A stretch of DNA of 58,250 nucleotides from Raineya orbicola (GTDB taxonomy: Bacteria > Bacteroidota > Bacteroidia > Cytophagales > Thermonemataceae): the NCBI RefSeq assembly GCF_002843425.1, contig NZ_NKXO01000024.1, forward strand, positions 1-58,250, given 5' to 3'. The translations under genes and the position numbers were made by a program. The notes under the pieces are model-generated. The model worked only from the letters and a program-made list of their open reading frames with translations, was not told the origin of the DNA and searched no databases. Of the stretch, positions 1 to 58,250 are shown piece by piece; the first letter of the stretch is position 1, and every line of letters starts with the position of its first letter.

Positions 1-81
1 ATGCCAATCTGATAAATATTTTTGCAAAACAGCTAACATTTCATTACCTTTGCGTAAAGCTTTCCCTTGTGTGTGAGCCAT
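1..81 (-). CDS. transposase, N-terminal fragment (27 codons, cut by window edge)
   Basis: On the minus strand an ATG at 81 opens a frame that stays open to base 1 and begins MAHTQGKALRKGNEM. It lies just inside the IS terminal repeat, in the right place and direction for a transposase whose C-terminus is the fragment at the other window edge. The ATG sits in the 3' arm of an 11-bp inverted repeat (75-85 / 108-118), so it would be paired in long transcripts entering from outside the element. No Shine-Dalgarno sequence is evident, which is common in Bacteroidota. The 27 residues are too few to assign a family. Confidence 0.6.
   Translation of the reverse strand, partial: MAHTQGKALRKGNEMLAVLQKYLSDWH
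21..52 (+). promoter_or_regulatory. Bacteroidota-type promoter inside the IS, antisense to the transposase
   Basis: TTTG at 21-24 and TACCTTTG at 45-52 match the -33 (TTTG) and -7 (TAnnTTTG) elements with a 20-bp spacer. Transcription would start near 59 and run opposite to the transposase gene. Chance matches are possible in AT-rich DNA, but a terminator lies the right distance downstream. Confidence 0.5.
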
Positions 82-125
82 ATAAACTTTGTTTTTTCTC
101 TCAACAATTATATGGCTCTTTTTTT
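59..125 (+). ncRNA. candidate antisense RNA of the transposase (RNA-OUT-like)
   Basis: The predicted start near 59 follows the promoter at 21-52. The RNA would end at an intrinsic terminator made of GAGCCATATAA (75-85), a 22-nt loop and TTATATGGCTC (108-118), followed by seven T (119-125). The product would be about 67 nt and complementary to the transposase message around its start codon (81) and first codons. Its size and position resemble RNA-OUT of IS10, which blocks transposase translation. That it is made, and that it regulates, is inference from sequence only. Confidence 0.45.
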
Positions 126-135
126 ACTTTTTCAA
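107..135 (-). promoter_or_regulatory. possible transposase promoter
   Basis: On the minus strand TTGAAA (135-130) is followed after 17 bp by TATAAT (112-107), a near-consensus sigma-70 pair of the general bacterial type rather than the Bacteroidota type. A start near 100 would exclude the upstream hairpin arm (118-108) from the native message, leaving the ATG free. Read-through RNA from outside would contain both arms and hide it. Confidence 0.4.
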
Positions 136-160
136 ACTAAAAATTTTGTCGGAGGACTGA

Positions 161-3100
161 ATGAAAAGAGTTACTCCCGAAAAACCTCTTTTCTACCCCG
201 CTCTGAACGTATTAGCTTCGGTTTTGTTTAAGCAAGGCAAGTTAAAAGATGCTGAAGAGGCTTTTTTACAGCTCATTAAAGAAACCCGAAATAAATTTGG
301 CGAAGATGAAAGATATGCCAACTACTTGTATAATATCGGCACTTTCTACCGAAATACTTATCAATTTGCCAAAGCCGAAAACTACCTAAAAATGAGCCTT
401 TCTTTGCAAGAAAAATTGCTGGGCAAAAAACACCCCGATTATGCTCTTACTTGCTCACAATTGGGCTATGTATATCAGGATTTGGGCAAATGGCAAGACG
501 CTGAAAAACTTTTGCAAGAAGCTAAAAATATTTTCAATGAAAGAAACGATAAGCTCAATTATATTCTTTCGCTCAATAGTTTGGGAAGTTTGAAAGAGCA
601 TCAGGCGTTTTTTGTTGAAGCCGAAAAGCTCTACAAAGAAGCTCAACAACTCTGCGAACAGCACTTCGGTAAAGAAAAAAGCACTTATGCCACCATTTTA
701 GGCAATTTAGCAGGTTTATATTTCAAGCAAGGAGCATACAAACAAGCCGAACCACTTTTAGCTAATGTTTTAAGCATCAAAGAAAAAGTTTTTGGCAAAA
801 ATAGCCCCGAATACCACATAAGCCTGATGAATTATGCCGTGCTAAAAAAAGAACTCGGTGCAACAGAAACGGCAGAAAAAGACCTAATGAAATGTGCCGA
901 TTACTTTCAGAAAAATGTGGGGAAAAATACGCCTTATTATATTTCTGTTTTGCAAAATTTGGCTGTTATTTATACCGAAAAAGAAAGTTTTTTGCAAGCC
1001 GAAGAGAAATATTTAGAAGCTCAAACGATTTGCCAAAAAGTTTTTGGAGAGCGAAGTTCCAATTATATTGAACTTCTCAACAATTTTGCTCAATTCTATA
1101 TTACGCTTGGCAATTTAGAGAAGGCTTTAGACTTGTATCAGCAAATTTTGTCTTTATCCGAACAGATTTGGGATAGAAATCATATCAGATATGCCAATGC
1201 GATTAGTTATGTTGGATATATTTTTGCAATGGCAGGCAATTACGAGGAAGCTGAAAAATTGGGCTTGAAAAGTTGGGAAATCGCACAAAAATACTATGGT
1301 GAAAATCAGCCTGAACTACTTTCTATACTCAACAATCTTGCCTATACGCTTTCCGAAGCCAAAAAATACAAAGAAGCCTCTTTCTATTTGGAAAAGGCTA
1401 AAAGTGTAGCCGAAAAACTTTATGGCAAAGAAAATATTTTTACAGGGGTAGTTTTCAATAATGTAGGCACAAATTTTATCCGAGCAGGCGAGTATAAGAA
1501 AGCTCAACCTATACTCCTTGAATCCTTGCAAATCCAAGAAAAAATTTATGGCAAAGAACATCAAACTTATCTGACTGCCGAACAGAACCTTGCTTGGCTA
1601 CATAGCTTGCAAAATAATTTCTCGGAAGCCGAAAAAATCTATCAAAGAAATTTAAGTAAGCAAATAGAACGAATTTTTCAGATTTTCCCCATACTTTCAG
1701 AAAATGAAAAAATTAGTTTTGTAAGAAATCAACAAAGATTTTTTGAAAATTACATAGATTTCTGCATTCGTTATCCTTCGTATAAGCCCAATATTTACGC
1801 AGATTTGTTGGATTTTCGCCTGCTTACCAAAGGAATGATTGCGGAGGCTTCACAAAATTTACAGAAAAAAGTGATAGCTCTCAAAAACCCTCAAATTACC
1901 CAACTCTACAACCAATGGCTCGCTAAAAAAAATGAGTATCTAAAACTTTTGAACGCACCTGTTTCCCAAAAAAGCGATACCCAAATCAAACAAGTTACAG
2001 AAGAACTTAATTTTTTGGAAAAAGAACTTTCTAAAAAGGTAGATTTAGGCAAAACACCCAAAAAATACTCTTGGAAAGACATTCAAAAACAGCTAAAAAA
2101 TGATGAGATTGCTATTGAGGTTATCAGAACGCTGACACAAAACCCTACCAATCGTCAGAAAACAGATACTGCTTATGTTTTTTTAATCATTACTACCCAA
2201 ACCAAAGAAGCCCCCGAATTATTACTTGCCCCAAATGCCTCACTTTTAGAAACAGAACAATTAGCCCTCTACGGCAATGTGATAGAAACTCGTAAAACAC
2301 AATTTTATCAGGAGTTGTACGACAACTTTTGGGGAAATATCATCAAAAAAAGTAAGGTTTTACAAAGCACAAATTTCAAGAAAATCTATTTTTCACCCGA
2401 TGGCGTGTATCATAAAATCAACTTGGCAACTCTTTATGATGAAACCAAAAAGCAATTTTTAGGAGAGTTTTTGCAAATTTATCAACTCACCAACTTGAAA
2501 AAGTTAATAGAAACTGATAATCTTTCAGTTTCCAATAAAAATGCTTTTCTCGTAGGCTATCCTGATTATCAAGGAACTGACGAAAAACAAGAAAAACCCG
2601 AAAATAGAGGGTATAGTACTAAAATCACTAACAAAGAAAAGCAAAAACTTTCTCGTTTCTTAGATTTTGAAAGTGTAAGCTATTTGCCCGGTACGAAAAA
2701 AGAAACAGATAAAATTGCTGATATTTTGCAGAAAAAGGGCTTACAAGTAAATCTGTTACAAAGCAAGCAAGCTACCGAAGAAGCTATCAAAAAAGTATCT
2801 AATCCACAAATTTTGCATATCGCCACACACGGATTTTTTTTAGAAGATGTAGATACGGGTTCAGAACTTGATGTAAAGCAAAGTTTGGTGAATAAAAATC
2901 CTCTTTTGCGTTCGGGTTTGCTACTGGCAAATTGTAGCAAAAGTTTAAGACAGGGCGAGTTAAACTCCGAAAAAGAAGATGGTATCCTGACGGCTTACGA
3001 AGTAGCTCAGTTGGAATTACAAAATACTGCTTTGGTGGTGCTTTCTGCTTGCGAAACAGGTTTAGGAGCAATTTTGAATGGGGAAGGAGTTTTTGGTTTG

Positions 3101-3313
3101 CAACGTTCATTTTTTCAGGCAGGGGCTAAAAATCTGATTATCTCGCTGTGGAAAGTAGATGACGAAGCTACGCAAAAGTTTATGGAGATGCTCTACGAAA
3201 ACTGGCAAAACAAAGGTATGAGCCTACAAGAAAGTTTTTATGAAGCTCAAAAAGCTATTCGTCAGCAGTATATCCACCCCAAATATTGGGGGGCATTTGT
3301 GTTGGTGAAGTAA
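161..3313 (+). CDS. TPR-CHAT protease, probably 5'-truncated by the IS
   Basis: The 1050-residue protein has an N-terminal array of about ten 42-residue kinesin-light-chain-type TPR repeats (roughly 1-480), a helical linker, and a C-terminal CHAT domain, a caspase-like cysteine protease fold (roughly 690-1050). The probable catalytic pair is visible: His890 in ATHGFF and Cys964 in SACETG. It resembles the complete paralogue at 12678-16898, but that one begins with a signal peptide and this one starts directly in TPR sequence. The ATG at 161 lies 3 bp outside the IS terminal repeat, and the codon before it (158-160, partly IS) is a stop. The simplest reading is that the true 5' end, with its signal peptide and promoter, was removed by the insertion. 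A product from this ATG would stay in the cytoplasm. The gene may be non-expressed. Confidence 0.85.
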   Translation: MKRVTPEKPLFYPALNVLASVLFKQGKLKDAEEAFLQLIKETRNKFGEDERYANYLYNIGTFYRNTYQFAKAENYLKMSLSLQEKLLGKKHPDYALTCSQLGYVYQDLGKWQDAEKLLQEAKNIFNERNDKLNYILSLNSLGSLKEHQAFFVEAEKLYKEAQQLCEQHFGKEKSTYATILGNLAGLYFKQGAYKQAEPLLANVLSIKEKVFGKNSPEYHISLMNYAVLKKELGATETAEKDLMKCADYFQKNVGKNTPYYISVLQNLAVIYTEKESFLQAEEKYLEAQTICQKVFGERSSNYIELLNNFAQFYITLGNLEKALDLYQQILSLSEQIWDRNHIRYANAISYVGYIFAMAGNYEEAEKLGLKSWEIAQKYYGENQPELLSILNNLAYTLSEAKKYKEASFYLEKAKSVAEKLYGKENIFTGVVFNNVGTNFIRAGEYKKAQPILLESLQIQEKIYGKEHQTYLTAEQNLAWLHSLQNNFSEAEKIYQRNLSKQIERIFQIFPILSENEKISFVRNQQRFFENYIDFCIRYPSYKPNIYADLLDFRLLTKGMIAEASQNLQKKVIALKNPQITQLYNQWLAKKNEYLKLLNAPVSQKSDTQIKQVTEELNFLEKELSKKVDLGKTPKKYSWKDIQKQLKNDEIAIEVIRTLTQNPTNRQKTDTAYVFLIITTQTKEAPELLLAPNASLLETEQLALYGNVIETRKTQFYQELYDNFWGNIIKKSKVLQSTNFKKIYFSPDGVYHKINLATLYDETKKQFLGEFLQIYQLTNLKKLIETDNLSVSNKNAFLVGYPDYQGTDEKQEKPENRGYSTKITNKEKQKLSRFLDFESVSYLPGTKKETDKIADILQKKGLQVNLLQSKQATEEAIKKVSNPQILHIATHGFFLEDVDTGSELDVKQSLVNKNPLLRSGLLLANCSKSLRQGELNSEKEDGILTAYEVAQLELQNTALVVLSACETGLGAILNGEGVFGLQRSFFQAGAKNLIISLWKVDDEATQKFMEMLYENWQNKGMSLQESFYEAQKAIRQQYIHPKYWGAFVLVK

Positions 3314-57270: not shown

Positions 57271-58128
57271 ATGCTTAAAAAACTACTGCTACTGATTATC
57301 GGCATTGGGCTACAATACTCTAAGGGATTTGGGCAAACCATTATTCTTGAAGGCGAAAAACCCAGCCAAGAAATAGGAAAATATTTGTATTGGGTAGAAG
57401 ACCCCCATAATGATTTCAGCATAGAACAAGTATCAGCTGAAAGTTTCCAAAACCGCTTTCAGAAAAATACACAAGAGGTTTTTAATGTAGGTGTTTCACA
57501 TAAAACTTACTGGCTACGTCTGGAAATACAGAGCAAAGATTTACTTGCTCGTGATTGGCTCTTGTATTCCTCATATCCATTTTTAGATAAAGTTTGGCTT
57601 TATCAAAAAAATAAATTTGGAGAGTGGGAAACCCTCAAATCAGGAATTTTGGAAGAATTCCAAAAAAGACCTATCAAGCACCGTTATATTATTTTTCCAT
57701 TGGAAACCCGTGATACCCTCGTTCAACGGATATACATTAAAATTCATTCTGATACCCCTATCCAATTTCCTGCCTACATTGAGCGTGGAAGTTATTTCGC
57801 TGAACCCTCTCGCCTTTTAGAATTATATTATGGCATTTTTATTGGTATTATGTCTTTAATGCTTCTGGGCAGTATTTTTTATTGGATATACTTCAAAGAT
57901 AAAGATTACCTCTACTATGCCCTTTTTCTTTTGGGAGCAATGATTTTTTACCTTTCGCTTAGCGGGCATTTATTTCAATTTTTATGGCGAACAGAAGGGT
58001 ATTGGGGTAAAATGATTTTAGGTGTAGGTATTGGTATTTGGATAATGGGAGCAGGACTTTTTACCAAACATTTCTTACAAACTTTTCGCTACTTCCCATT
58101 AGGAGGTAAAATAATGCAAATTTTTTAG
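57271..58128 (+). pseudogene. 7TMR-DISM sensor protein, truncated by IS insertion
   Basis: The remnant has 285 residues: a signal peptide (about 1-21, ending FGQ), a 7TMR-DISM extracellular domain of the PF07696 type (about 30-175, with TYWLRLEIQ and WLLYSSYPFLDKVWLYQ), and three membrane helices (about 188-215, 220-245 and 253-275). Full proteins have seven helices and then a kinase, cyclase or LytTR output domain. The frame ends at a TAG (58126-58128) whose last two bases are the first two of the IS terminal repeat, so the insertion removed the last four helices and the output domain. A possible unrelated C-terminus would be needed for function. Confidence 0.88.
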
Positions 58129-58250
58129 TCCTCCGACAAAAGTTGAATAGTTTTTACAAGTTGTGGATATTGGGTATCATTTAAGAGGCAATATTGCAAA
58201 AACAGGAAACCATACCTAAAAAAAGAGAACTCTCTACGCCCGTTAGGACA
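58125..58250 (-). CDS. transposase, C-terminal fragment (41 codons plus stop)
   Basis: On the minus strand a frame enters from the right edge in phase and ends at TAA (58127-58125). It contains NGRREFSFFRYGFLFLQ and ends QLLSED. The GRR-x-F-S-x-F-R-Y-G-F stretch is reminiscent of the C-termini of IS4-type transposases, but the match is from memory. The stop codon uses one base of the terminal repeat and two target bases. It is either a second IS copy or the other end of the element at 1-158. Confidence 0.6.
   Translation of the reverse strand, partial: CPNGRREFSFFRYGFLFLQYCLLNDTQYPQLVKTIQLLSED
58127..58250 (-). mobile_element. 3' end of an insertion sequence, running off the right edge
   Basis: AGTCCTCCGACAAAA at 58127-58141 is the inverted counterpart of bases 144-158. 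The element continues beyond the window and has interrupted the 7TMR-DISM gene. Orientation matches the left element: both transposase fragments read on the minus strand, so the two are direct repeats flanking the window. Confidence 0.8.

Follow-up and report, generated by a model that had tools for sequence, protein, structure and literature searches.

An insertion sequence (IS) of Raineya orbicola appears to carry, at one of its ends, an IS10-style double lock on the synthesis of its transposase, a reading to which I assign a probability of about 0.68 on the strength of sequence comparison and RNA folding. In the first lock, a Bacteroidota-type promoter inside the transposase gene would give rise to a short antisense RNA, running approximately from position 59 to position 125 and terminated by a hairpin followed by a T7 run; by pairing with the native mRNA over about 40 nt, start codon included, this RNA would block translation in trans, and repression would become stronger as copy number rises. 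In the second, the native promoter would be placed within the outer arm of this hairpin, and the native mRNA would accordingly start in the loop and remain open, while RNA entering from neighbouring genes would have both arms and fold over the start codon. The production of the antisense RNA, its ends and both inhibitory effects I infer from motifs and predicted structures.

The window, that is the whole stretch of DNA analysed (58,250 nt), is the complete contig C24, and both of its termini lie inside copies of one IS. The same IS 5' end is present at 12 contig ends, with 100% identity over 160 aligned bases. These copies agree through base 161 and their flanks diverge directly past it, which moves the IS boundary from 158, where the sequence-only reading had placed it, to 161. 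The other end of the IS is borne by 14 contig ends, including the right end of the window. For 10 of the 12 left ends, a partner carrying the identical 9-mer target duplication exists among the 14 right ends: the left end of the window is matched to an end of contig C5 through the 9-mer CTCTTTTCA, and its right end to an end of contig C52 through a 9-bp target duplication. The copies at contig ends are probably recent insertions. No contig containing the IS interior was found in the assembly, where 161 nt and 127 nt of the two ends are present. At 58124-58250, the stop codon of the transposase overlaps the terminal repeat. On the other side of the window, an open reading frame (161-3313), TPR and CHAT-like by eye, adjoins the IS. 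Its start ATG was created at the IS junction, A161 being the last base of the IS, and a host gene was therefore probably cut by the insertion; the 9-bp duplication indicates contig C5 as the other side of the cut gene.

Table 1. Features of the two IS ends in the window (positions in the 58,250-nt contig).
Feature	Position	Strand	Basis
IS4-family (IS10-related) IS 5' end	1..161	minus	12 contig ends, 9-bp target duplications
IS terminal repeat TTCAGTCCTCCGACAAAA	161-144	minus	part of IS 5' end
Transposase gene start, 27 codons, continuing off the contig	1..81	minus	translation, relics, full-length relatives
Antisense promoter, -33 element TTTG	21..24	plus	sequence; relic conservation
Antisense promoter, -7 element TACCTTTG (TAnnTTTG), 20-bp spacer	45..52	plus	sequence; relic conservation
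Predicted antisense RNA of about 67 nt with inferred ends	59..125	plus	promoter position, terminator, RNA fold
Dyad arm over transposase start codon	75..85	plus	perfect 11-bp inverted repeat with 108-118
Dyad loop, partly complementary to predicted native mRNA 5' end	86..107	plus	fold
Distal dyad arm, overlapping native promoter	108..118	plus	inverted repeat with 75-85
T7 run adjoining dyad, putative terminator tail of antisense RNA	119..125	plus	sequence
Native transposase promoter, -7 element TATAATTG	105..112	minus	motif
Native transposase promoter, -33 element TTTG	133..136	minus	motif; overlapping sigma-70-like match also listed
Opposite end of second copy of the IS, transposase C-terminus and stop codon	58124..58250	minus	

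The minus-strand frame starting at 81 encodes MAHTQGKALRKGNEMLAVLQKYLSDWH. Its earlier identification as a transposase gene holds, since this N-terminus is common to relics and full-length relatives and a matching C-terminus is found at the right end of the window. A same-genus relic extends the N-terminus into an IS4-type transposase, and full-length relatives of 362 aa are found in three genomes of the same order (G028, G043, G083) and on one Bernardetia plasmid. A search for relatives returned three loci in genome contigs, none in viral contigs and none with blastn against plasmids. The nearest full-length relative, P0002, matches PF01609 (DDE_Tnp_1) and NCBIfam NF033591, the latter over its cut-off, and the C-terminus encoded at the right end of the window aligns with it at 15 identical residues out of 41 (E 3e-8). 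Since the IS10 transposase also matches NF033591 over the cut-off (404 bits), IS10 is a family relative of the window IS, not a mere analogy. The passages of the IS4-family survey used here (PMC2266710) characterize the IS10 subgroup by a 9-bp target duplication, a DDE transposase with a YREK motif and a length of 1200-1350 bp; they give 5'-CT as the tips of the family and 5'-NT as those of the IS10 and IS50 subgroups. The 9-bp duplication is present (at 10 of 12 left ends), and the tips of the window IS are TT, compatible with NT and not with CT, the latter being what the relatives G028 and L143 (Bernardetia) have. A Y-2-R-3-E-6-K spacing was recognized by eye in P0002, a relative's sequence, the window IS interior being missing from the assembly. 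The window IS is a candidate member of the IS10 subgroup.

The sequence-only reading had proposed that a promoter, a hairpin and a T run encode an antisense RNA covering the transposase start. All of these motifs, including the 20-bp spacer, were recovered (Table 1), and the minus-strand ATG at 81-79 falls within the predicted RNA; the promoter motif applied is the sigma-ABfr consensus (PMC7366714, in the part cited). Structure prediction for 59-125, suggested as a check by the same reading, gave -15.8 kcal/mol, a value equalled by 0 of 200 shuffles, with z-scores of -5.2 for this strand and -5.9 for the reverse strand (200 shuffles). When both strands of the window were scanned for stems with at least 9 perfect base pairs, a last base other than T and a loop of up to 30, the hairpin was the sole one adjoining T7, and none was found in five dinucleotide-block shuffles; a terminator scan with an 8-nt loop limit did not list the site. 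Over the interval from -85 to +30 (the A of the ATG being 0, here and below for the family), the window fold is weaker (z of -2.7 sense and -1.6 antisense), and the gapless score of the dyad has a shuffle p of 0.069. The dyad contains no G-U pair and is thus neutral as to strand. The antisense promoter score of the window, taken alone, is matched by 1 to 6% of recodings.

One might suppose that this promoter drives neighbouring host genes and that the hairpin serves simply to terminate transcription or to insulate. The motif does point outward, and IS elements with outward promoters, such as ISAba1, are familiar. However, the hairpin and T7 begin 23 bases beyond the -7 element and end inside the IS boundary, and transcripts should therefore stop within the IS, which makes such a role improbable.

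The native promoter overlaps the distal arm of the dyad, and the native mRNA should therefore begin in the loop, at about 97-99 by prediction, and lack the distal arm. The predicted cost of opening the start codon is 13.2 kcal/mol in the read-through RNA versus 2.8 in the native RNA; the identical calculation for IS10 gives 13.7 and 4.6 kcal/mol, respectively. The ATG is thus predicted to be hidden in the former RNA and open in the latter, and the hairpin should have a second role that the sequence-only reading did not mention, namely to block translation of read-through mRNA. The antisense RNA in turn is predicted to fold as RNA-OUT does, the stem spanning the ATG and the loop taking in the 5' end of the mRNA, and to overlap the native mRNA by about 40 nt, start codon included. 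The main competing hypothesis is that this fold-back is the sole function, the dyad serving to conceal the ATG when mRNA is read through from outside, with an antisense motif that is fortuitous or unused. It gains from the fact that strong sequestration is predicted solely for read-through RNA; the evidence against it comes from the comparisons below.

The copy-to-copy comparison that the sequence-only reading had called for was carried out, and because the 12 copies are identical it has no power to decide. Six diverged relics of the same lineage are 66-77% identical to the window IS end. The full motif, TTTG-N20-TAnnTTTG, is perfect in the window and in four of them: L014, L018, L021 (genome G003) and L024 (G078). 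The same four keep the -33 TTTG, which is missing in L020 and L013, and TAnnTTTG is kept in five, L013 being the exception. L020, which retains the -7 element and has lost the -33 element, is rearranged beyond the -7 element. L013 (1501-1605; G000 C51:13214-13318) is a decayed relic of about 70% identity that lies in the same genome as the window; it lacks the antisense promoter (score of 6.25 of 9), was excluded from the recoding test and was checked separately later. In that test, which covered the window and five relics, a score of at least 8.25 was observed in 5 of 6 sequences versus 0.4 expected by synonymous recoding; the relics share ancestry and hence are not independent events. When four relics were aligned with the window, the stem was retained through nine pairs in L014 and L020, largely retained with one double compensatory change in L018, and partly missing in L024. 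The five sequences of this lineage covary weakly overall, with a signal that 51 of 500 shuffles equal or exceed. Bernardetia-type elements have a different perfect 12-bp repeat (GCCATAATTGAG/CTCAATTATGGC), whose inner arm likewise holds the ATG and which is bordered on its outer side by an A-run. The perfect promoter in four of six relics, together with its positional enrichment in distant relatives (below), lends strong comparative support to the candidate antisense RNA of IS10-like design.

For the family as a whole, 60 loci were pooled and reduced to 43 non-redundant ones by dropping those that shared over 80% identity in the interval -75 to +60. Also omitted were loci with no clear ATG or with an incomplete N-terminus, together with L145 and L183, and the start codon of each element is a chosen in-frame ATG. 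An antisense promoter was scored when it reached 7.5 of 9 with its end at 0 to +39. By this measure, 15 of 35 non-redundant Bacteroidota elements have one and 20 fall below the threshold. Recoding that preserves the protein leads one to expect 3.3 of 35, and 15 was reached by 0 of 500 recoded sets; with two ISBf13 siblings removed, the count is 13 of 33 versus 3.1 expected. Other estimates of the background are 2.1 expected from codon shuffles, 4 of 43 ATG open reading frames of the window and 4.6% of 216 other open reading frames. The sites concentrate at one position: 12 lie at +20 to +39 and 4 at 0 to +19, with 4 at -40 to -1 and 5 in the entire interval +40 to +599. Among the 15 promoter-bearing elements, median identity over the first 27 residues is 11% (three are ISBf13-like siblings and one further pair reaches 48%), and the predicted antisense RNAs are 59 to 102 nt long. 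In distant relatives too, then, antisense promoters cluster at one position more than their proteins alone would produce, and at the level of motifs a promoter inside the gene, as for RNA-OUT, is a family-wide tendency. The native promoter motif occurs in 26% of elements in the -40 to -1 bin; the other bins range from 0 to 12%. For 8 non-Bacteroidota members scanned with a sigma-70 motif, even the IS10 antisense promoter scored at background.

The dyad also recurs at the start codon. In a profile of 30 elements, with redundancy left in, the mean fold z in a 90-nt window centred at -20 is -3.85 sense and -4.2 antisense, and lies between +0.4 and -0.6 outside -40 to 0. Over -85 to +30, z is below -2 in 26 of the 43 non-redundant elements on the sense strand and in 33 on the antisense strand, the antisense value being the lower in 29 of 43 (p 0.02). 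G-U pairs in 31 dyads are biased towards the antisense strand, 52 to 16 (p 0.001 against shuffles), a bias that IS982 controls share. At least 6 A in 8 bases outside the dyad, which would be a T-run in the antisense RNA, adjoin 11 of the 31 strong dyads, compared with 1.7% of control windows. Proteins can bind to inverted repeats close to IS ends, and the dyad could on this general ground be a DNA-level site, for protein binding or as a transposition end structure, with no role in RNA. That its place stays tied to the ATG from element to element, flanked by promoter motifs of both the native and the antisense kind, argues against such a site, which I regard as very improbable.

Two other families, IS982 and IS4_1, served as controls. 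Start hairpins occur in 11 of 21 IS982 elements (transposases of the same order) and in 4 of 19 IS4_1 elements, some elements being incomplete. For the remaining controls, the elements retained were those whose N-terminus was considered complete, 14 of IS4_1 and 16 of IS982. G-U pairs number 13 antisense to 2 sense in IS982 (10 dyads) and 6 to 2 in IS4_1, and an A-run lies outside the dyad in 1 of 10 and 2 of 5, respectively, which are small numbers. Both the hairpin and the G-U strand bias were considered as proof of an antisense RNA and dropped, because IS982 elements display the one and the other. Some A-enrichment is likewise present in IS982 and does not single out an antisense RNA. Since neither the hairpin nor the bias is specific, it is the promoter evidence that carries the antisense case. 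Antisense promoters exceed expectation weakly in IS982 (2 of 16 elements have one, against 0.4 expected, a count reached by 30 of 500 recoding sets), and many of the elements L268-L286 combine a strong start-codon hairpin and an antisense G-U bias with little antisense-promoter signal. These IS982 data favour the competing hypothesis. For the relatives of IS10, by contrast, that hypothesis accounts neither for the enrichment of the antisense promoter at one position (0 of 500 recoding sets) nor for the A-run adjoining 11 of 31 strong dyads, and I consider it unlikely for the window IS; the double lock remains the preferred reading. In IS4_1, antisense promoters are present in 5 of 14 elements versus 1.4 expected, 5 being reached by 2 of 500 recoding sets; L240, L242, L245, L250 and L251 have a good Bacteroidota promoter in antisense orientation just inside the gene. 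The feature is therefore not unique to IS10 relatives, and antisense control may extend past them. A broader generalization, which I put forward tentatively and at somewhat less than even odds, would make the antisense cassette no peculiarity of IS10 but a control device widespread in its transposase family, and perhaps in sister IS4 groups too, with each phylum writing it in its own promoter code and elements of unrelated N-termini keeping or re-evolving an antisense promoter at one and the same site just inside the gene.

If functional, the pattern would make antisense control a common feature of the IS10 transposase family, and one that Bacteroidota also have, would help to explain the restraint of an IS with about a dozen copies, and predicts RNA starts that can be checked in existing Bacteroidota start-site maps. 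Among the matches listed in the open literature, no antisense RNA was found for a Bacteroidota IS of this kind, and the word "antisense" is absent from the main text of the IS4-family survey (PMC2266710) in the portion used. A map of B. thetaiotaomicron, according to the section cited, holds 78 cis-antisense RNAs (PMC7366714), and it is possible that such an RNA was already detected among them. The putative IS10-style control with promoters of the host phylum is well supported by comparison.

RNA-OUT of IS10 is 69 nt long and overlaps its mRNA by 35 nt (PMC5006887, in the part consulted). The claimed resemblance to it is upheld in several respects. The antisense RNA, a predicted one in the window, starts just inside the transposase gene (+8 in IS10, from the Rfam match, and about +23 by prediction in the window, the A of the ATG here being +1), is about 67-70 nt long and overlaps the 5' end of the native mRNA (35 nt in IS10, about 40 nt predicted in the window); in both, the dyad covers the ATG, which lies in the inner arm, and the loop is complementary to the predicted mRNA 5' end. 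Conversely, the putative window promoters conform to the Bacteroidota consensus, and the stem is shorter (11 bp) and adjoins a T7 run that IS10 does not have there. The Rfam RNA-OUT model (RF00240), to which IS10 scores 98.8, yields no hit at its gathering threshold, whether in the window or at the nine loci of relatives that were scanned.

Protection against read-through by fold-back is a feature of IS10 and IS50. An IS200 version of it has been described (PMC3196728, in the part consulted). As in these three elements, the hairpin of transcripts coming from outside would hide the translation start in the window IS; its dyad differs in also resembling an antisense terminator. IS30, IS200 and ISPpu9 are representatives of other IS families. 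According to the passages cited, IS10, IS30 and IS200 have inhibitory antisense sRNAs, whereas Asr9 of ISPpu9 stimulates translation (PMC8450116). The predicted RNA of the window shares with those of IS30, IS200 and ISPpu9 the targeting of transposase mRNA by an antisense sRNA. Closer to the host, DonS-type RNAs of Bacteroides are short cis-antisense RNAs that act on polysaccharide-use genes (PMC7366714, same section); they resemble the window RNA in phylum and type and differ in that their targets are polysaccharide-use genes and no IS is involved. Finally, a six-member family of B. thetaiotaomicron sRNAs (BTnc020 and others), bound by RbpB, adjoins transposases and invertases in the account used (PMC11697453); these are likewise Bacteroidota sRNAs beside transposase genes, the difference being that they are described as adjacent.
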